A stretch of DNA of 64,000 nt from Rhodanobacter sp. C03 (GTDB taxonomy: Bacteria > Pseudomonadota > Gammaproteobacteria > Xanthomonadales > Rhodanobacteraceae), in assembly GCF_002001175.1 (NCBI RefSeq), contig NZ_MUNT01000006.1, forward strand, positions 744,001 to 808,000. The letters are read 5' to 3'. The notes beneath the pieces are model-generated. The model worked only from the letters and a program-made list of their open reading frames with translations, was not told the origin of the DNA and ran no database searches. The position numbers were made by a program, and so were the translations under genes. This document shows, one piece after another, positions 33,453-42,846 of this stretch; the first letter of the stretch is position 1; every line of letters starts with the position of its first letter.

Positions 33453-33471
33453 GCTACTCGCAAGGCCAACT

Positions 33472-34128
33472 TCACCCGCGCGGTTTACCCCGAGCGCGCT
33501 TTCTGGCACTCACGGAGCGGGCCCCCTCTTTGGCCGCCAAGGCGCCGCCGTCGCTCATCTGTTCCAGCCACGACAAGGTGTCGACGTACGCCAGGAACTG
33601 CTGGAGATACCCTGGCGAAAGCTCGCGCATGAGCGTGAGCGACCGGTGTACGAGGCTGCCTGAGTTGAGCGGACCGGCATTGGCAGGCACGTGCTCCAGC
33701 GACTGCCGCACCTGGCTTTCCGTGCGGACCTCGGACCAGATTTTTCTGAATTCATCGAGCGCCTCCAATGCTGGAAAGGCGGGAGGCTGGGGCGCCACAT
33801 CACGCACGACAGGATAGTCGCCGTGCGTCGCCGCATACTGGGTGATGTGATCGATCAGTCCGCCTAGCGCTCCACGGGAAGGCGCGCATGTCGTCGTCAC
33901 GCTGTCGGCATGGCCGGTGTTGGATGCCGCCATGTCGAGATCGGCCGCATAGGTCTCGATCAGCGTGGACAGCCTGTCGTCCAGAATGCATCGCGTCTCG
34001 CCATCATGACCTGCCGCGCGCCGCTCCAACACCTCGATGAAATGAAATCGCAGGGGATTCAGGCGATCGGCGCCCTGCTCGCGCCACACATCGAGCATCG
34101 CCCGGGCTCGTGTCCCGCTATCACTCAT
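33472..34128 (-). CDS. DUF2894 protein, last gene of the ZorAB-like operon
   Basis: A 218-residue soluble protein of the DUF2894 type; no catalytic motif recognised. The C-terminus is a basic tail (SARKRARGKPRG) that could bind nucleic acid or membrane. Residues about 190-200 include SWLEQMSDGG. It starts 8 bases inside the preceding OmpA-like gene and is thus translationally coupled to it. Function unknown; the constant linkage with a proton-channel-like pair suggests it works with that complex. Confidence 0.8.
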   Translation of the reverse strand: MSDSGTRARAMLDVWREQGADRLNPLRFHFIEVLERRAAGHDGETRCILDDRLSTLIETYAADLDMAASNTGHADSVTTTCAPSRGALGGLIDHITQYAATHGDYPVVRDVAPQPPAFPALEALDEFRKIWSEVRTESQVRQSLEHVPANAGPLNSGSLVHRSLTLMRELSPGYLQQFLAYVDTLSWLEQMSDGGALAAKEGARSVSARKRARGKPRG

Positions 34129-34768
34129 GAGGCGTCATGGTTACTGTCGACTGCTTCGGGATAGGCGAAATTTCCACGCGCCGGTTCCGCGCCCGCCCCT
34201 CGTCATCGGCATTCGAACTCACCGGCTGCTCGGCACCGAAGGCGGCGGCAAATACCGAGGAGGCCGGGAGGCCATCGGCGATCAACGCACGAGTCACGGT
34301 CAACGCGCGCTCGGCTGACAGCTCCCAGTTATCGGCGAACTGCCGGTTGCCATCGCGTACTTGCCGGTCGTCAGTGAAGCCGCTCACCATCAGGATCTCG
34401 TCGCGAGACTTGAGGTAATCGGCAAGCGGAGTCGCCAGGCTCTTCAGTACTTCCCGCCCTTCGGACTGAAGCTGATCGGAGTTCAGCGCGAACAATACGC
34501 TGCCGCGAATACCGATGCGTCCATTGACGAGCGTCACGCGGCCAGCGGCCAGCGGCACCGCCAACGCCTGCTCCAGCGTCATGCGGCGTTGCGCCTCGGC
34601 CTGTCGCTGTTTGACCGCTTCATCCAGCTTGTTCGAGAGTTGCAGCTGCACGCCGATCACGCCCACCAGGATCAGCACGAACACACCCAGCAGCACCGAC
34701 ATCAGGTCGCCGAAGGCGGCCCAGATCGGTGCCGTCGACTCCTCGACGCCATCCACTTCGTCGTTCAT
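34121..34768 (-). CDS. MotB/OmpA-like membrane protein (ZorB-like)
   Basis: A 215-residue protein with a short cytoplasmic N-terminus, one transmembrane helix (about 16-42) and a periplasmic OmpA-type peptidoglycan-binding domain (about 90-210). The helix begins WAAFGDLMSVLLGVF; Asp21 lies where MotB and ZorB carry the proton-binding aspartate. The OmpA part shows SGFTDDRQVRDGN, LSAERALTVTRALI and ARNRRVEI. This fits the stator-plug partner of an ion-driven motor. It starts inside the stop codon of the DUF802 gene (ATGA). Confidence 0.88.
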   Translation of the reverse strand: MNDEVDGVEESTAPIWAAFGDLMSVLLGVFVLILVGVIGVQLQLSNKLDEAVKQRQAEAQRRMTLEQALAVPLAAGRVTLVNGRIGIRGSVLFALNSDQLQSEGREVLKSLATPLADYLKSRDEILMVSGFTDDRQVRDGNRQFADNWELSAERALTVTRALIADGLPASSVFAAAFGAEQPVSSNADDEGRARNRRVEISPIPKQSTVTMTPHE

Positions 34769-36861
34769 GCCGTTTCGGCCTCAGCGAGCACGCGTTGGCC
34801 GGCGAGCTGCTGCATTTCCTCGATAATCTGTTTCTGTGACAGCATGCTCAGGTCGATCACTTCCCTGGCCTGCGCGACGTAATAAGCCAGTTGTTCGTCA
34901 CTGCGCGCGAGCGATTTGTCCAGCGCGACTTCGATGCGCTGCAGGTGATCCATCAACAGGCCGTTCGACTCGCCGAACGTCTGTACGGCCACGCCGAATA
35001 CTTCGCCGAGGCTTGCCACCTCGACGGCACTGCCGGTGACTTGCGCGGCCACCGCGCCGAGCTTGCCAGTCTCGGCCTCGATATGGTCAGTGAACCGCGT
35101 GCCGACACGCTCCAGCAGATCCGCCGACGTGGCCACCAGCGCATCGACGGCCACCCGTTGCTCGGTAGACGCATGGTTCACGGCATCGAGCAGGGTATCG
35201 AGCGTGGCCATCAGGCGGCTACGCTCCTCCAGCATGGCGGTATCGCGGACCATGCTGTCGGAGAGTTTCTGGCGCAGCTCGGCGACAACTTCGGCCGCCG
35301 CCTTGGGCGCTTCGGACGCAGCCTGCACGAGCCGGGAAATCTCGGCGATCGTGCCGCTGGCGTGTGCTTCTGTCTGCGCAGAGATGTCGCGCGCGGTCTT
35401 CGCCAGAGCGTCGCAGATCTCCAGCTGCCGGCTTGCGGCGTGCTCGCCCGCCTGCTCCCACTGCTTGCTCAACGCCGCGCTCATCGAACCGAACGAATCT
35501 GTCCAGACAGTCAACCGTTCCTGATCCCGCGATTCCAGCACCGCCTGCACGTCCGCATGCGACTGATGCACGCTGCGAACCAGCGACGTGGCGTGCTCCT
35601 CGAACGTCGCCACAGCCGCGGTCAAGGCTTGCTGATTGCGGGCCGCCAGATCCGCGTTGACGGCTTCTTGCCGCGACAGCGCGTTGTTCCATGCGTTCGC
35701 CGCGCTGCCCGCCGTGGCGTCGAGACGTGCAGCGACGCCTTCCAACAGACCGGCCGAGCGTTGCTCGAAGGTGTCGGTGAACTGCTGCAGTGAGCTGCGC
35801 TGATCCTGGGCCAGCGCTTCGTTCGAGCGCCGCTGCTCCACCAGCGTATCGTTCCAGATCGCAGCCATGGTCGTGGTGGTCGTCTCCAAGCCGGTCGACA
35901 ACCCCTCCAGCTGACGCTGCACGGCGTGTGTGACCGTGTCGTGCAACGCTGCCGTTTCGCGTGCGAGACCGGCCATCGTGGCCTGCATTGCCGGTTGCAG
36001 CGCCGCCCCGACAGCAACGGCACTCGCGGCGACGCTCTCCTTCAACGACGCCTCCACGGAGGAGGCAAGGCGCGTATAGGTAGCCTCGGTCTTCGCGTGG
36101 AAGGCCTCGTGGTTGGCCATCTGCCGCTCGCTGGTGGCCATGCTCTGTTGCTCGATGGTAGCCATCATCGTCTGCAGGCGATAGATCAGGGTAGGCATTA
36201 GTTCGGTCTGCTGCTGCAGGAGCTTGAACGATTCCTCGCGCTGATGACTCTGCGAATGGATGCGCAACGTCGTCGCGATTTTCATGTCCAGAAGCTGCAC
36301 CGCCTGCAGCCGCTCGCGCCGGCATAACGCAGAAAGCAGCCCAAGCATCGCCGAGCTGGCAACGCCCGCGATCGAGGTGCCGAACGCAAACCCCAGCCCC
36401 TTGACCGGTGCGGCAAGAGATCCACGGATAGCCTCCAAGTCCGTTGCGCTTTCCAGCGCCATGCCGGTGCCTCGAAGCGTCGCCATCATGCCCAGCAGCG
36501 TGCCCAACATGCCCAGCAAGACGAGCAGACCCACCAGATACGGCGTCAGCGCCGGCACCGGCAAGGCCACGCGCTCACCCTCGATGCGCAGGCGTGTCGC
36601 ATTGCGCAGGCTGGGATGCAAGCGGCCCAGCCAGTCACTCAAGCTGGTCGGCGCAACGGACAAATCCGTCACGGCGCGCGTCAGCGTGGACGTGGCTTGC
36701 CGATAGCGATACAGCTCAAGCCCGCCCGCCAGATAGCACGCGCCAATCACCATCGTGACGGCCGTCGCCAGCGGATTGGAGCCGACGTAGCCGGCGCCGA
36801 TCCAGCACACCGCGACCAGACCTGTGAAAAACACCGCGAGATTAAGAAGATTTCTGAACAT
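34765..36861 (-). CDS. DUF802 membrane protein: ExbB/TolQ/MotA-like (ZorA-like) with long helical tail
   Basis: A 698-residue protein. Two N-terminal helices (about 5-50) and two further helices (about 108-130 and 150-185) have the look of MotA/TolQ/ExbB proton channels: LLGMLGTLLGMMATLRG and GLGFAFGTSIAGVASSAMLG. After residue about 190 it is a helical, coiled-coil-like tail of about 500 residues, rich in Ala, Gln, Glu and Thr, with methyl-accepting-like pattern. The layout equals that of ZorA, whose long tail reaches into the cytoplasm. It ends inside the start of the OmpA-like gene and begins 10 bp after the DUF3348 gene. Confidence 0.88.
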   Translation of the reverse strand: MFRNLLNLAVFFTGLVAVCWIGAGYVGSNPLATAVTMVIGACYLAGGLELYRYRQATSTLTRAVTDLSVAPTSLSDWLGRLHPSLRNATRLRIEGERVALPVPALTPYLVGLLVLLGMLGTLLGMMATLRGTGMALESATDLEAIRGSLAAPVKGLGFAFGTSIAGVASSAMLGLLSALCRRERLQAVQLLDMKIATTLRIHSQSHQREESFKLLQQQTELMPTLIYRLQTMMATIEQQSMATSERQMANHEAFHAKTEATYTRLASSVEASLKESVAASAVAVGAALQPAMQATMAGLARETAALHDTVTHAVQRQLEGLSTGLETTTTTMAAIWNDTLVEQRRSNEALAQDQRSSLQQFTDTFEQRSAGLLEGVAARLDATAGSAANAWNNALSRQEAVNADLAARNQQALTAAVATFEEHATSLVRSVHQSHADVQAVLESRDQERLTVWTDSFGSMSAALSKQWEQAGEHAASRQLEICDALAKTARDISAQTEAHASGTIAEISRLVQAASEAPKAAAEVVAELRQKLSDSMVRDTAMLEERSRLMATLDTLLDAVNHASTEQRVAVDALVATSADLLERVGTRFTDHIEAETGKLGAVAAQVTGSAVEVASLGEVFGVAVQTFGESNGLLMDHLQRIEVALDKSLARSDEQLAYYVAQAREVIDLSMLSQKQIIEEMQQLAGQRVLAEAETA

Positions 36862-36871
36862 GACTTCCCAG

Positions 36872-37615
36872 TTAGTTGGTGCGAAGCGCTGCGAGCAGGC
36901 CTTCGACCGGGTGAAAACGAACGTCCAGTTCGGCGAGCAACACGCTCTGCACGTCCTTGCGAAACACGTCCAGCCATGCCCCAGGCGCTATCGCCAAGGC
37001 GCCCTCCGAGACCTGCGCGTCGGCCAGCGCCGTCTGCTCGGCCTGACGCAAGCGTTCGAAGTAGTCCCCGAGTAGCGCAGGCACGTGGGCCAACAGAGCC
37101 TGCTCGCGCGGGCTCAGTGCACGCTCCATCGCCGCATCCACGGCCGCCAGCCGCGCCATGTCGGCCGTCCTCTGCGCGAGCATGTCCCGCAGACGGCCGC
37201 GCAGGTTACCGGCGGCTGCCTGCATCGACCGCTGGATGGCGAGATAGCGCTGACGAAACAGCGAGTAATCGACCACCTCGTTCGCGCCACCTTCCTCGAC
37301 CAACGTGTGCTCAGCCCCGCGCTGGCTTGCGGTGGCGAATGCTCGATCGCCAGTAATGACACTGGCCAACGAGGTACGCACACGGATGTACTCGTTCTCT
37401 TCCGCGCTGCCAAAGGTCGGCACGTCGAAACCCACCTCAGACGGTTTGCCGTCAAGCGTCGTGGACAGCGCAACAGCGTGCGTCCAGTCAAGCCATTGGC
37501 CGAGCCGGTCCGACAGCGATTGTCTGGATGGGGGAACGTCGACGTCCGTCAAGCGAGCAAGCAAGCGTATGAACGTCGGGCCGCGGACATTGGTCCGTTG
37601 AGGAGCTTGCAGCAT
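36872..37615 (-). CDS. DUF3348 protein, first gene of the ZorAB-like operon
   Basis: A 247-residue soluble protein of the DUF3348 type with no recognised catalytic residues. It is mostly helical by composition, with conserved-looking RGPTFIRLLARLTDVDVPPS near the N-terminus and FRKDVQSVLLAELDVRFHPVEGLLAAL near the C-terminus. It leads the operon and lies 10 bp before the DUF802 gene. A coupled DUF3348-DUF802-OmpA-DUF2894 order is, to my knowledge, recurrent in Xanthomonadales and Burkholderiales. The function is not established. Confidence 0.82.
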   Translation of the reverse strand: MLQAPQRTNVRGPTFIRLLARLTDVDVPPSRQSLSDRLGQWLDWTHAVALSTTLDGKPSEVGFDVPTFGSAEENEYIRVRTSLASVITGDRAFATASQRGAEHTLVEEGGANEVVDYSLFRQRYLAIQRSMQAAAGNLRGRLRDMLAQRTADMARLAAVDAAMERALSPREQALLAHVPALLGDYFERLRQAEQTALADAQVSEGALAIAPGAWLDVFRKDVQSVLLAELDVRFHPVEGLLAALRTN

Positions 37616-37808
37616 ATTTCTGGCTGAAAAACCGCCATTTTACATGCTAACGGGGTGGAGGCTGCTGCCTGTCGATTGGCGTGCAAGCGGCCGAGGCGGC
37701 CGGCCGGCATACTGGTGGCGTCCGCTTTCGATCCATAGCGGACAAGGGATAGTCGATCCGGAGCTCATCGCTTCGGCGCTGAAAGCGATTTTCAAATTGA
37801 TCTGATCT

Positions 37809-38480
37809 ATGTTTCCCATCCAGGCGAACATTCTTTACCGAGTCTTCTTCATCAAGGCGGCTAAGTACGGAACGGCCTTCATCATTGATGTCGAAGGCAC
37901 CGAATACCTCGTCACAGCGAAGCACCTGTTCGACCAGGCCGCGGACAATCATGAGATTCAGCTATTCCAAAACAACCGGTGGGTGCCGTATAAGCCGAAT
38001 GCCATCGCCTTCTGTAGGAGTGAGGCGGACATTGCCGTTCTGCGCCTGCATCAGCGGTTGACGCCGCCCGACTTGCCTGTAACGCCCACTGTTGCAGGGC
38101 TGACCTTGGGTCAGGACGTATATATCTTGGGGTTCCCCCACAAAATGCACGAAGACGTCGGGCAGCAACTCGGCGGGAATCCATGCCCCCTGATCAAGCG
38201 AGGCACCGCCTCAAGTCTTGGCGTCGGTGATCCGCAGGTTTTGTTCGTGGACACACTGTCGAATGAAGGTTTTTCAGGAGGACCTGTGGTCTTCCTACCG
38301 CCGAGTTCGCCCCAAGGCGTTCGAATCGCTGCGGTTATTTCGGGTTTCAAGACGCACCCTAAGCCAGTCATCGGAAGCGACGGCGAGCCAACCGGCGCGT
38401 ATGTCGAGATGAACACAGGACTGCTTCGGGCCTATGGAATCGCTTACGCCCTTGACCTGATTAGTCGAATGCCGCGATGA
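37809..38480 (+). CDS. Trypsin-like serine peptidase (cytoplasmic)
   Basis: A 223-residue chymotrypsin-fold peptidase without a signal peptide. The triad is His39 (TAKHLF), Asp74 (EADIAVL) and Ser156 (NEGFSGGPV). It has no PDZ domain, unlike DegP-type proteases. Stand-alone trypsin-like modules of this kind are often found in accessory or conflict-system loci. It is divergent from the DUF3348 operon, with about 190 bp between them. No good Shine-Dalgarno sequence is seen before the ATG. Confidence 0.82.
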   Translation: MFPIQANILYRVFFIKAAKYGTAFIIDVEGTEYLVTAKHLFDQAADNHEIQLFQNNRWVPYKPNAIAFCRSEADIAVLRLHQRLTPPDLPVTPTVAGLTLGQDVYILGFPHKMHEDVGQQLGGNPCPLIKRGTASSLGVGDPQVLFVDTLSNEGFSGGPVVFLPPSSPQGVRIAAVISGFKTHPKPVIGSDGEPTGAYVEMNTGLLRAYGIAYALDLISRMPR

Positions 38481-38569
38481 GAATCGGGCGCGTTTGCCTC
38501 GGCGGATGTCCGCTTCTGGCCGGATAGCGACCATGTCACGCGGCGCTATCTGGCCAGCAAATCCTCCGA

Positions 38570-38659
38570 TCAGACTTCGGTCTGCTCTGCGATCTCAAGA
38601 GCATCCTCCACCTCGATGCCTAGATAACGCACTGTGCTTTCGAGCTTGGTGTGTCCGGG
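38570..38659 (-). pseudogene. Remnant of a tyrosine recombinase/integrase C-terminus
   Basis: The last 29 codons before a stop read PGHTKLESTVRYLGIEVEDA and on to AEQTEV, the typical end of a site-specific tyrosine recombinase (HTKLESTVRYLGIE holds the nucleophile Tyr). Upstream the frame continues with sequence unrelated to integrases, and the catalytic Arg/His/Arg parts are missing. It is therefore a degraded fragment, a sign of past integration here. Confidence 0.75.
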
Positions 38660-38741
38660 TTCTACCCAGTTTGCTGATGGCATGCGTAGAAGGGATACAT
38701 CGAGCTCTTTCATTTTAGGTTGTCGTGCTGTTTGTAAGAAA

Positions 38742-40766
38742 TCACCAAAGCCGAACCCGATCTTCAGGTGCAAGATAAAGTTTGTCGTCCTTGGTCACGT
38801 GCCATGCGTCGTACCAAGCGTCCAGATTGCGAACCGGGCCGTTAACACGCGCCACGGGCGGACTGTGCGGATCTGACGCGAGGTTTTCGCGGAGCCTGTC
38901 GTCGCGTGTCTTATTCCGCCACGATTGCGCCCAGCTCAGGAAAAAGCGCTGGTCGCCGGTGAGGTTATCGATTACCGGCGCAGCCTTGGTTCCCAGCGAA
39001 TCATGATAGGCGGCGAGCGCAGTAGACATACCCGCGAGGTCCGCGATGTTCTCGCCTAGCGTCAGATCACCCTTAATGTGAACACCCGGCAACGGCTGCA
39101 TGGCAGAAAACTGGGCACTTAGGCGGCTTGCCTGCAGCTTAAAGCGCTTGGCATCATCTGGCGTCCACCAGTCTCGCAGCCGGCCGTCTGCGTCGACATG
39201 ACGCCCTTGGTCGTCGAAGCTATGGCTGAGCTCATGGCCGATGACGATCGCAATCGCGCCGTAGTTAACTGCCGGGTCGGCTTTGGGATTAAAGAATGGA
39301 GGCTGCAGCATCGCACCGGTGAAAATCAGCTGCCTATTTTCGGTGTAAGCCGTGGGATATTGGGGCCAAAAGCGCCAGTCGCTCTTGTTCCAAGGGCCCT
39401 TGCGCTGGGCGACCCTTCGATGCCAGTCAAACGCACGTGCGCGAGACACGTTGCCGAAAAGATCGTCGCCTTGAATATCGAGTGCGCCATAGTCAATCCA
39501 TCTGGCCGGATGCCCCACCTGTACCTCAATATTGGCGAGCTTGCGTAGTGCCTCTCGGCGGGTGGACTCACCCATCCAGGATGCAGTACCGATTTGCCGT
39601 TTAAGTGCAGCACGAACGTTTTTTACAAGCTCGACCATTGCTTCCTCCGTCGACGCCGGATAGTAACGCTCGACATAGAGTTCACCCACGGCGGACCCCA
39701 TAAGCGTGTTGAGCATCTCCAATCCACGCTGCCAGCGCGGCAAAATGGTGGGTTGACCTGAAATGGAGCGCCGGAGCTCAAAGCTCGCTTCTACGAAGGC
39801 GTTGGGTAAATATGCCGAAGCGTTATCGGCTGTGCGAAAGGCCAGCCAAGCCTTAAGAACGGGTAAGGGTGTCGTCGAGTACAGCGCGGCAAGCCGCTGC
39901 ACACTGCTAGGTGTTGAAAGGTTGACTTCAGTCAGGTCTTTTAAGTCGGCTGCGGCCCAGAACTGCGCCCAAGGAAATTGAGGAATTTCCTTTGCTAACG
40001 TGCTCATTTTTACTGGGTTGAACGTGGTCGTTGGATCACGCACCTGCTCTTCCGTCCAGCTCGCCGCCGCAATTTGCGCTTCAAAGTTAACGACCGAGTT
40101 GGCCGCAGTAGGTGCGTCGGGCCAATCACAGAGAGCGAGCATCTTTGCGACATACGCCCGATAGGCAGACAGCTTGTTCGCGAAACGGGGATCAACGTAG
40201 TAATCGCGGGCCAGCCGCAAGCCACCCTGCTGTACGTTCACCTCGTACCCGTAGCCACCAGATCGATCGGCGCTAAAATCAACGTCGAAGAGGCTAACGC
40301 CAAAACCTGAGTTGGCTCGCCCCATTAAGGTCGCTACGTCTGCGCGATTCGCAGCAGCGGCGATATGTGCGAGTTCGCCATCCAGCGGATGGCGGCCGCG
40401 CGCCTCGACGACGGGCTCGTCTACGAAGGAGCGATAAAGCTGTCCAACCTTTCCAACTTGGTCGGTGGGAACGAGGCCTTTGTCAGGTATAGATTCAACA
40501 ATCACCTTGGTCCGCTGGCTCGCGTCTCGGGACATATTGGCGAAAGGACCAACGCTCACCCGGTCGTCAGGGATCTTTGTCCTATCCTCCCACGTACCAT
40601 TTGCGAAACGATCGAAATCGTTGCCTGGTCTAACCTGTCGGTCCATCCCGATGAAATCGAGCCCGGACCCTACCGTGACTTTTTCGGTATGAGGCATTTC
40701 GGCCGCCATCGCGGCACACGCCATTGCGACGACAACCAGAGAAATTGAAAAGCGCAATAGGCGCAT
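38742..40766 (-). CDS. M13-family zinc metallopeptidase (neprilysin/PepO type)
   Basis: A 674-residue exported peptidase. A signal peptide (about 1-22, ending AMAA) precedes the M13 N-terminal domain (PGNDFDRFANGTW) and the catalytic domain with HELSH (zinc-binding HExxH), ENIADLAG (third ligand Glu and Asp) and C-terminal YLAPEDRVRLW. M13 enzymes cleave small peptides. Start at 40766 follows AAAGGAT. The gene lies in a visibly lower-GC section, with codon choice unlike the neighbouring his genes. It lies downstream of the two-component genes on the same strand. Confidence 0.92.
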   Translation of the reverse strand: MRLLRFSISLVVVAMACAAMAAEMPHTEKVTVGSGLDFIGMDRQVRPGNDFDRFANGTWEDRTKIPDDRVSVGPFANMSRDASQRTKVIVESIPDKGLVPTDQVGKVGQLYRSFVDEPVVEARGRHPLDGELAHIAAAANRADVATLMGRANSGFGVSLFDVDFSADRSGGYGYEVNVQQGGLRLARDYYVDPRFANKLSAYRAYVAKMLALCDWPDAPTAANSVVNFEAQIAAASWTEEQVRDPTTTFNPVKMSTLAKEIPQFPWAQFWAAADLKDLTEVNLSTPSSVQRLAALYSTTPLPVLKAWLAFRTADNASAYLPNAFVEASFELRRSISGQPTILPRWQRGLEMLNTLMGSAVGELYVERYYPASTEEAMVELVKNVRAALKRQIGTASWMGESTRREALRKLANIEVQVGHPARWIDYGALDIQGDDLFGNVSRARAFDWHRRVAQRKGPWNKSDWRFWPQYPTAYTENRQLIFTGAMLQPPFFNPKADPAVNYGAIAIVIGHELSHSFDDQGRHVDADGRLRDWWTPDDAKRFKLQASRLSAQFSAMQPLPGVHIKGDLTLGENIADLAGMSTALAAYHDSLGTKAAPVIDNLTGDQRFFLSWAQSWRNKTRDDRLRENLASDPHSPPVARVNGPVRNLDAWYDAWHVTKDDKLYLAPEDRVRLW

Positions 40767-40824
40767 TGGTGATGATCCTTTATCAGATACGAATGAGGTC
40801 GAGCTAAAAGTCACGAAGAGATCA

Positions 40825-41562
40825 CTACGCTGTGGGATTGCGCAGCACTTTGCGGACGCCTGGCAGGTAATTAGGGCCTACCTGGACGGTCTCTCCGTCT
40901 GTCATGACAAGCCGGTAAACGCCCGTCTCCGATCTGACTAGACGCTCGACGAAAGCCAGGTTGACGAATGCTGATCGGTGCACGCGTGGCATCGTCGCTG
41001 GCAGTCGTTCTGCCATCTCCAACATCGTGCTGCGAAGTAGATGACTCAGTGCAGCGGTGTGTACGATCACGTAGTCTCTAGCTGCTTCGATCCACTTGAT
41101 GTCACTCATGGCAACATCATGGCCGCCACGGGCGTCCGGTACGTGCAGCATGCGGTGTGCACATAAAGGCTCCGCAACTGCTGTCTCCAACGCGGTGATC
41201 TCGGCGATACGTCGTTGCGCCCGGAACACCGCTTGCTGGAGCCGATGCGGACGCACCGGCTTAAGGACGTAGTCGGTTGCTTCCACAGCAAAGGCTTCGG
41301 TGGCGTAACGGGCGAACGCAGAGACGACGATTACCTGAATCCTCCGCTCAACCGCCAGTATTGAAGCAACTTCGATTCCGTTAAAAGCTGGCATCTCGAT
41401 ATCGAGCACAATCAAGTCAGGTAGCAGCCGCCGGGCTTCAATTAAGGCAGCCGCCCCGTCACTCGCCGTACCAACTAACTCAACATTCGGCATTTCCCCA
41501 ACGATCGCTACGAGTCGTCTCAGCGCAAGTGGCTCATCATCGACAAGTAACACCCGGATCAT
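40825..41562 (-). CDS. LytTR-family response regulator
   Basis: A 245-residue response regulator. The receiver domain (about 1-120) has the acidic pocket LLVDDEP, phosphoacceptor Asp in LIVLDIEMPAFNG, and Lys in YVLKPVRP. The C-terminal LytTR DNA-binding domain (about 140-243) has DIKWIEAARDYVIVHT and MPRVHRSAFVNL. The ATG at 41562 overlaps the kinase stop (ATGA), so kinase and regulator are co-translated. Target promoters unknown; the M13 peptidase gene downstream is a candidate. Confidence 0.92.
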   Translation of the reverse strand: MIRVLLVDDEPLALRRLVAIVGEMPNVELVGTASDGAAALIEARRLLPDLIVLDIEMPAFNGIEVASILAVERRIQVIVVSAFARYATEAFAVEATDYVLKPVRPHRLQQAVFRAQRRIAEITALETAVAEPLCAHRMLHVPDARGGHDVAMSDIKWIEAARDYVIVHTAALSHLLRSTMLEMAERLPATMPRVHRSAFVNLAFVERLVRSETGVYRLVMTDGETVQVGPNYLPGVRKVLRNPTA

Positions 41563-42623
41563 GCTTTTCTCCAATGCGTGCCCTGACTTATGGGCAAGCG
41601 GATTGTTGCGAGAAAGCCGTCGTCAACCTTTTTCGTTTCTAGCGAGCCTGCTTGGCCATATTGTGTCTGAAGGCGCTGTGCGACGTTGCGCAATCCAAGG
41701 CCAGCCCCTGTGCCACTATGCTTGTGATCACGCGGACTTGCCGTCGTGGCGTAGTCCTCCACCGTAATAATAAGTTCCTGCTCAATGACGTGCGCGGTGA
41801 TGACGATCGTTGCCCCGGCTATAGTTGGGGCAACCGCGTATTTAATCGCGTTTTCGACAAGTGGCTGGAGAATGAGGCTTGGAACGGAAGCGACGACACT
41901 CAATTCGTCAAAGCGGTATTCGACGTGGAGTCGGTCACCGAACCGCACCGTCTCGATATCGAGATAGGCCTGTACCGTTTCAAGCTCTCTACCTAGCGGG
42001 ACAAGCGCAGACAGGTCGGCGTGCAGCGTGGCACTGAAAAAGTCTGCGAGTTTGGCAATCATCTCTTCCGCAGCGTCACCATTCCGCTCCGAAATCAGGG
42101 TCGAGATGGCATTCAACGTGTTGAAGAGGAAGTGCGGATTTACTTGGAAGCGCAATGCCGCGAGCTGGGCCTCAACAAGCTCCTTTTCCCGTTGCGCTAG
42201 AGATCGCGTCGATTGGATCAACGCTAGAACGATGATTTGAAAACCAAAAAGCAAGTTGAAATAAACCCAGTTGTAGCGCCGGATCGCGAAGGATCGAAGG
42301 GTCCATCCGCCTACGACGGTAGACGCCTGTAACAGCGTATCTACCAGCCAGAGCAGCGTTCCACTTGCAAATATCGTCAATGCAAGCAATGCCAAACTTT
42401 CTCGCTGCGGTAATGCGAGCGTGCGCTGAGTAAGTTTTGTTACAAAAAAGGACAAGCAGATACCGCATCCGGTAGTTCCGGCCAGCTTTAGCGGAACACT
42501 AGATTCGATCGGAGGCACAAATGAAAGTCCGATACCTAGAAATGCAATCGTCGCCCATAATCCACAGATGAGGTATTGGGGATTGGCATTCTCTAAGGAG
42601 CGCAAAAATGATCTTGTTTGCAT
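41559..42623 (-). CDS. LytS/YehU-type membrane sensor histidine kinase
   Basis: A 354-residue kinase. The N-terminal half has about four to five transmembrane helices (about 20-165). The His_kinase domain (PF06580 type) holds the phospho-accepting His in RFQVNPHFLFNTLNAIS (about residue 185) and the ATP-binding N-box LILQPLVENAIKYAV, then GTGAGLGLRNVAQRL. It partners with the LytTR regulator directly downstream. Low-GC codon use matches the M13 gene. Confidence 0.92.
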   Translation of the reverse strand: MQTRSFLRSLENANPQYLICGLWATIAFLGIGLSFVPPIESSVPLKLAGTTGCGICLSFFVTKLTQRTLALPQRESLALLALTIFASGTLLWLVDTLLQASTVVGGWTLRSFAIRRYNWVYFNLLFGFQIIVLALIQSTRSLAQREKELVEAQLAALRFQVNPHFLFNTLNAISTLISERNGDAAEEMIAKLADFFSATLHADLSALVPLGRELETVQAYLDIETVRFGDRLHVEYRFDELSVVASVPSLILQPLVENAIKYAVAPTIAGATIVITAHVIEQELIITVEDYATTASPRDHKHSGTGAGLGLRNVAQRLQTQYGQAGSLETKKVDDGFLATIRLPISQGTHWRKA

Positions 42624-42846
42624 TCCTGCAGACTATTGACTTTCGGGCTGATATCCAACCCCGTTTTGTCGCATTTTCGAGGCCTTCGTCGAAAACATCC
42701 AAGCCGCCAGCGCCGACCAACGAACGTCCGCCTTTGGGCTTCGAATTGAGCGCAACGAATGTCTCAAACTGGCCGATGGTTGACGTTCAAAAAACGTACC
42801 TAAACCAGATTCGACGAGTCGTGGTCGCCACCTTTCGAAATTCTTC

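Follow-up and report, generated by a model that had tools for sequence, protein, structure and literature searches.

A Zorya type III operon of Rhodanobacter sp. C03: ZorA tail modules and distribution

Zorya type III was defined in 2021 by Payne et al. as a pair of zor genes that lies between genes for DUF3348 and DUF2894 proteins. In the available passages of that paper (PMC8565338) the two DUF proteins are proposed as ZorAB regulators, and a cloned type III system from Stenotrophomonas nitritireducens is reported to lower phage plaquing on E. coli. The available passages of PMC11890865 describe, for types I and II, a demonstrated 5:2 ZorA:ZorB complex, a ZorB residue, D24, that is crucial for defence in both types, and the ZorE nickase as the dedicated effector of type II. 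A 2025 paper presenting structures of types I and II states, in its accessible text, that component size is well conserved within each Zorya family. The operon discussed here is of an already known kind. What is added is the presence of Zorya III, as followed by DUF3348, in all Xanthomonas species genomes searched and a ZorA tail whose length changes by modules.

The operon and its assignment

The window, which is the whole stretch of 64,000 nucleotides of Rhodanobacter sp. C03 DNA that was analysed, contains four coupled minus-strand genes at 33472-37615, separated by a gap of 10 bp and then by overlaps of 4 and 8 bp (Table 1). The ORF list agrees with a preliminary description of this DNA on the spacing and on the 698- and 215-residue proteins, and Pfam identifies the two uncharacterised proteins that had been placed on either side of the zor pair as DUF3348 and DUF2894. 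The ZorA-ZorB architecture that had been recognised is borne out by the PADLOC type III ZorA and ZorB models and by profile matches to 8vvn_C and 8vvn_B. The proposal that this is a distinct motor system has to be given up, since type III was named and phage-tested in 2021 and the PADLOC models for Zorya type III are the best for all four proteins (each best E <= 3.8e-81). The operon is almost certainly a member of Zorya type III.

Table 1. Features of the operon and its surroundings, in positions of the window
Feature	Position	Strand	Remarks
DUF3348 gene	36872..37615	-	247 aa, first gene of the operon; Pfam DUF3348 E 1e-90; PADLOC PDLC00656 E 1.4e-94
ZorA type III gene	34765..36861	-	698 aa; PADLOC ZorA3 models PDLC00649/00650 E 0; Pfam DUF802 E 8.3e-28
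ZorB type III gene	34121..34768	-	215 aa; PADLOC ZorB3 PDLC00651 E 9.6e-117; Pfam OmpA E 2.1e-18
DUF2894 gene	33472..34128	-	218 aa, last gene of the operon; Pfam DUF2894 E 6.5e-60; PADLOC PDLC00652 E 3.8e-81
87-residue tail module, ZorA residues 447-533	35263..35523	-	coordinates computed from the ORF start at 36861; one copy here
Variable stretch, C13-peptidase gene to hisIE	33453..42846	.	Zorya III with trypsin-like, M13 peptidase, LytTR and histidine kinase genes

All four genes were found by tblastn in 92 of the 95 fetched loci, the remaining three being truncated by contig ends, which argues that the make-up of the operon is not due to chance. Gene order is identical in 89 of the 92 complete loci and the other three differ only through over-extended ORF starts. 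The 95 loci represent 91 distinct genomes, as four genomes were entered twice (L017-L020), and the 80 named loci are the best 80 of 148 relatives from one scan and not a random sample. In the locus of a Paraburkholderia symbiont MAG (L090) ZorA has no intact frame and the other three genes are readable. Among the named loci the nearest by DUF3348 are Rhodanobacter sp. C01 (87% identical) and Dyella sp. S184 (86%), which places the window genome in the Rhodanobacter/Dyella group. The labels ZorF and ZorG are swapped between sources: the papers call DUF3348 ZorF and DUF2894 ZorG, and PADLOC-DB 2.0.0 (PDLC00652-00658) does the reverse.

Motor proteins, ZorA tail and accessory proteins

ZorB has an N-terminal helix with Asp21 (WAAFGDLMS) followed by an OmpA/peptidoglycan-binding domain of the MotB type, for which the best PDB profile match is 3khn (E 1.2e-15). 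Asp21 aligns with the aspartate of YWMSFSDLMS in 8vvn_B (E 1.4e-4), which is position 24 when counted from the printed alignment, and weakly with the aspartate of FWISYADLMT in 8qyd_F (position 26, E 0.064). We take 8vvn to be the Shewanella type I complex and 8qyd to be an E. coli complex, judging from their names and the published D24. Residue 21 is an aspartate in all 93 loci with a ZorB match among the 95 fetched, a count in which four genomes appear twice. The intramembrane aspartate pointed out in the preliminary description is thus upheld by the alignment and by its invariance, and it is very probably used by the motor.

Residues 1 to about 215 of ZorA are the MotA-like channel, with a profile match to 8vvn_C at residues 109-191 (E 2.7e-5). 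All 25 ZorA sequences compared, a set that leaves out L025 (stop in the reference), have Thr121, Thr162 and Ser163; in the alignment with 8vvn_C, Thr121 falls on a T and Thr162/Ser163 on a TS. Against the NCBIfam model antiphage_ZorA_2 the window ZorA scores 30.4 bits where the cut-off is 100. ZorA of type III is therefore distant from that of types I and II, which we count against the explanation favoured below. The Pfam DUF802 match sits in the tail, with its best stretch at 321-373, outside the MotA/TolQ-like channel, so that the name DUF802 denotes the tail and not the channel. The protein had been described as a DUF802 protein with a MotA/TolQ-like part; the channel stands, on the PADLOC ZorA and 8vvn_C matches, and the placing of DUF802 on it does not. 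In the literature text that was accessible, DUF802 is mentioned in one 2005 paper.

ZorA length ranges from 643 to 1229 residues in 79 sequences, which are those of the window and of 78 of the 80 named loci (the best 80 of 148 relatives; L027 and L090 have no complete frame). One copy of an 87-residue module is present at residue 447 in 18 of 18 ZorA proteins of 698 residues. There are two copies in the proteins of 785 residues (10/10), three in those of 872 (3/3) and four in those of 959 (2/2), and the proteins of these three lengths all come from Paraburkholderia or Caballeronia. Autocorrelation at 87 residues was found in the tested ZorA of the Paraburkholderia/Caballeronia type, and adjacent copies of the module are 76-96% identical in DNA (seven checked). 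ZorA proteins of other lengths show different patterns, with peaks at 80 residues in Burkholderia sp. SRS-46, at 62 in X. hortorum and, weakly, at 102 in A. marplatensis; some tails, such as those of the Cupriavidus-like locus L023 and of A. pestifer, gave no autocorrelation peak. The end of the last module lies 163-175 residues from the C terminus in 79 of 79 sequences. There are 74 pairs of ZorA with over 88% identity in the part outside the tail. In 24 of them the two lengths are more than 20 residues apart, the difference being 29, 87, 174 or 261 in 15 pairs, 102 or 131 in seven and 22 or 33 in two; these pairs are non-independent and draft assemblies may miscount repeat copies. The ZorA tail grows by whole modules ahead of a conserved far end. 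Inserts that preserve the helical phase of the tail were also tested for and are unsupported. Mean identity to the window ZorA is 77% for residues 1-215, 60% for 216-446, 69% for 447-532 and 79% for 533-698. The far end of the tail is as well conserved as the channel, which suggests that it may be a fixed docking end.

DUF3348 is predicted to be all-helical (mean pLDDT 74.6, pTM 0.70), and DUF2894 is predicted to contain helices only, with low confidence (pLDDT 64.7, pTM 0.35). A Foldseek search with the predicted fold of DUF3348 gave no significant match (best E 0.43), and PDB profile searches gave weak matches only, the best being a myosin coiled coil for DUF3348 (E 0.03) and an apolipoprotein for DUF2894 (E 0.12). 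Pfam found no enzyme domain in any of the four operon proteins, and DUF2894 matches the DUF2894 family alone. The earlier statement that the operon has no known effector agrees with the lack of any enzyme-like match for DUF3348 or DUF2894, the fold search covering DUF3348 only. The two proteins are probably not nucleases. The poor DUF2894 model (pTM 0.35) makes an enzymatic role possible, and this also counts against the favoured explanation. Conservation in DUF2894 is strong around GPLNS and SPGYLQ; S156, R162, S171, Y174, Y181 and D183 are present in 44 of 44 aligned sequences and H161 in 42 of 44, and the C-terminal end is basic as judged by eye.

Of 299 genomes of the order, 91 have DUF3348, and the same 91 have DUF2894 (E <= 0.001; the two genome lists were matched by eye). 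One genome of this comparison, G288, has an extra weak DUF3348 piece, and the DUF2894 profile scored above cut-off in the control genome of Corynebacterium glutamicum, where DUF3348 did not. An adaptor function for the two proteins is the assignment that we lean towards by a small degree.

Distribution and genomic surroundings

In the genus of the window, ZorA was found in 16 of 45 genomes and DUF3348 in 13 of 36, the window's own genome included in both counts. DUF3348 is single-copy and has no internal stop in all 35 Xanthomonas species genomes, and in g63, a genus of the same family, it is likewise single-copy with no internal stop in 20 of 20; DUF3348 alone was sought in these two sets. 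The first genus (g54) is taken to be Xanthomonas since its places in G632 and G629 coincide with those of two named loci, L069 (Xanthomonas sp. LMG 31884) and L074 (X. hortorum). All four genes are present in the 16 fetched Xanthomonas loci. Cas1, the single control for the Xanthomonas counts, was found in nine of the same 35 genomes, with strong matches in four and matches no better than E 1e-10 to 1e-11 in the other five. A mobile defence system would not usually be present in each Xanthomonas species genome examined, as DUF3348 is, and we count this against the favoured explanation. DUF3348 was found in seven of 274 genomes of the class and in 68 of 250 genomes of the family of genome G447, for which the nearest fetched loci are those of Achromobacter and Burkholderiaceae; one of these 68 is below the family cut-off and several are fragmented or partial. 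No phage record was matched by DUF3348. In the gene tree Achromobacter, most Burkholderiaceae and the Xanthomonadales form separate groups, the exceptions being Trinickia terrae, which stands apart, and Dyella sp. S184, which falls among Rhodanobacter genomes. No paper on ZorA tail modules or on a core distribution of Zorya III was found in the open-access titles, abstract openings and passages searched.

The 95 loci were clustered into contexts by at least two shared same-side flank genes of at least 45% identity with single linkage; flank genes were called by a simple script and some loci have one flank only. All 16 fetched Xanthomonas loci are in a single context, as are all 13 Achromobacter loci. 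The 40 fetched Burkholderiaceae loci occupy 15 contexts, with 21 loci in one and the other 19 spread over 14, and about eight contexts were found for the 16 ZorA genomes of the window's genus. The preliminary description had held that conservation in one genomic place in all relatives would speak against defence. This pattern is seen in Xanthomonas, in presence and in context, and it is not seen in the window's genus or in the Burkholderiaceae.

Five genomes (G000, G061, G064, G014 and G035) carry Zorya III at the site of the window, which is bounded by a C13-peptidase gene and hisIE; G030, on a 5-kb contig, was assigned to this site on little evidence. At 14 other C13-site loci (L112-L125), five have a junction of about 30-135 bp and five carry other cargo of 0.9-6 kb, metabolic or membrane genes by their look; in four of the 14 the his genes are outside the view, and five of the 14 come from genomes with Zorya III elsewhere. 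The trypsin-like protease, M13 peptidase, LytTR regulator and histidine kinase genes at 37809-42623 lie inside the variable stretch and have a third-position GC of 0.56-0.65, below most ORFs called in the window. At two sites of the genus (L098/L099 and L104; 10 loci scanned) tRNA genes lie no more than 300 bp ahead of the operon on its upstream side, and in L023, L025 and L050 (28 other loci scanned) the upstream distance is no more than 400 bp. The six tRNA-adjacent operons represent four different sites.

The operon flanks hold mostly ordinary genes, which is a further point against the favoured explanation. PADLOC matches at E <= 1e-10 were found for four of 92 flank proteins (80 of the 116 listed flank ORFs and 12 from C13-site loci and the window), and with no background set alongside, depletion is unproven. 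In a second set of 128 flank proteins, drawn from 133 listed in 23 contexts, three families with one member each matched at the same threshold. One clear defence pair is present among the neighbours, an AbiL-like one in L102. This AbiL/RloB-like pair (L102:2181-4006) belongs to another species of the genus, where some 2.1 kb separate it from Zorya III, and makes up two of the four matches in the first set. The other two of the four are a regulator-like protein (mad2, Csa3) and one that matches REase_II and looks like endonuclease III. Near another Zorya III operon is an ORF of 1132 residues (L100:13566-16964) with no Pfam or PADLOC match.

Role of the system and relation to known motors

On balance we consider it probable that the operon encodes a type III motor with DUF3348 and DUF2894 as helical adaptors at the tail end and that it defends against phage. 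Motor architecture and the proposed trigger are carried over here from types I and II. ZorA and ZorB would assemble in the inner membrane into an ion channel of the MotAB kind, with five ZorA and two ZorB by homology. When a phage disturbs the envelope, the OmpA domain of ZorB may grip the peptidoglycan and ions may then pass Asp21 of ZorB and the ZorA ring of Thr121 and Thr162/Ser163. The ion flow would turn or strain the ZorA bundle, and the helical tail would transmit this motion into the cytoplasm. From conservation, DUF3348 and DUF2894 would most likely dock at the far end of the tail, where they may gate the motor or relay the signal to a factor encoded elsewhere. The preliminary description had named defence as a candidate role, and the plaque reduction published for type III (PMC8565338) accords with this. 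That defence is the main native role appears likely.

Why would a defence system be retained throughout a genus? The system could be a core envelope machine in lineages like Xanthomonas, a housekeeping motor that senses or works the wall like Tol-Pal or Mot, and protection of E. coli from phage could be a side effect of expressing an ion channel that is anchored in the wall. The intact single-copy DUF3348 throughout Xanthomonas and in g63, set against the Cas1 control, is what such a machine would show, as are the single contexts of the Xanthomonas and Achromobacter loci, a gene tree that mostly tracks large taxonomic groups, the few adjoining defence genes (counted with no background set) and a DUF3348 without a phage-record match. 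However, the cloned type III system is published to reduce plaquing (PMC8565338), just 16 of the 45 genomes in the genus of the window have ZorA, and DUF3348 is found in less than a third of the genomes both of the order and of the family of G447. The many contexts within one genus and within the Burkholderiaceae and the tRNA genes close to the operon at two genus sites also argue against it, and we regard a core machine as unlikely. A combined reading, also rather unlikely, is that Zorya III is an ion motor anchored in the wall and kept by vertical descent, which lineages such as Xanthomonas do not lose in nature. Its motor and tip would be fixed, and the length of the shaft would be tuned by the gain and loss of whole modules, of 87 residues in Paraburkholderia and of other lengths elsewhere. 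Defence would then be one output of the motor and perhaps not the original one.

Other readings keep defence and change the way in which the cell is protected. DUF3348 and DUF2894 may hold ZorAB shut until infection opens the channel and the membrane depolarises; the cell would halt before phage release and a downstream effector would be unnecessary. This is in line with the lack of a Pfam enzyme domain in the four proteins and of a significant fold match for DUF3348, and with the regulator role proposed by Payne et al. (PMC8565338). Type II, however, has a published dedicated effector in the ZorE nickase (PMC11890865), and a simple leak would have no need of a long tail whose end is conserved; such an abortive system is improbable. 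An even more doubtful alternative is that DUF3348 or DUF2894 is a cryptic effector acting on nucleic acid. The GPLNS motif of DUF2894, its invariant Ser, Arg, Tyr and Asp and its basic C-terminal end point that way, but Pfam gives the DUF2894 family alone, the best PDB profile match is the weak one to an apolipoprotein, and the weak prediction shows helices only. The type III motor with helical adaptors is the reading that we retain.

A defence system that is present in every searched species genome of a genus is unusual and raises the question of what selects for it. Close relatives with ZorA proteins that are exactly one, two or three modules of 87 residues apart in length form a natural series, and it lets the Zorya tail be examined as a ruler, a torque rod or a spacer.

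The operon has all four components of Zorya type III, zorAB lying between the genes for DUF3348 and DUF2894, and nothing tested speaks against its membership. Types I and II have in common with it the ZorA/ZorB motor, the ion-path aspartate, the Ser/Thr ring, the OmpA domain and the long ZorA tail. In contrast to them, the window operon has neither ZorC/ZorD nor ZorE encoded beside it in the neighbourhood examined: its nearest neighbours are the C13 peptidase gene and the trypsin-like gene, and the four right-side neighbour genes gave no Zor match in PADLOC. The type I and II ZorA and ZorB models score far below those of type III on the window proteins. Assignment to type I or II was rejected on these two grounds. 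The range of ZorA length in type III contrasts with the conserved component size stated in the 2025 paper. MotAB, ExbBD, TolQR and GldLM are families of 5:2 motors. The plan of a two-protein 5:2 ion motor is described in the abstract of PMC11890865, and to this plan Zorya III, which would share it by homology, adds a long cytoplasmic tail and two soluble partners.
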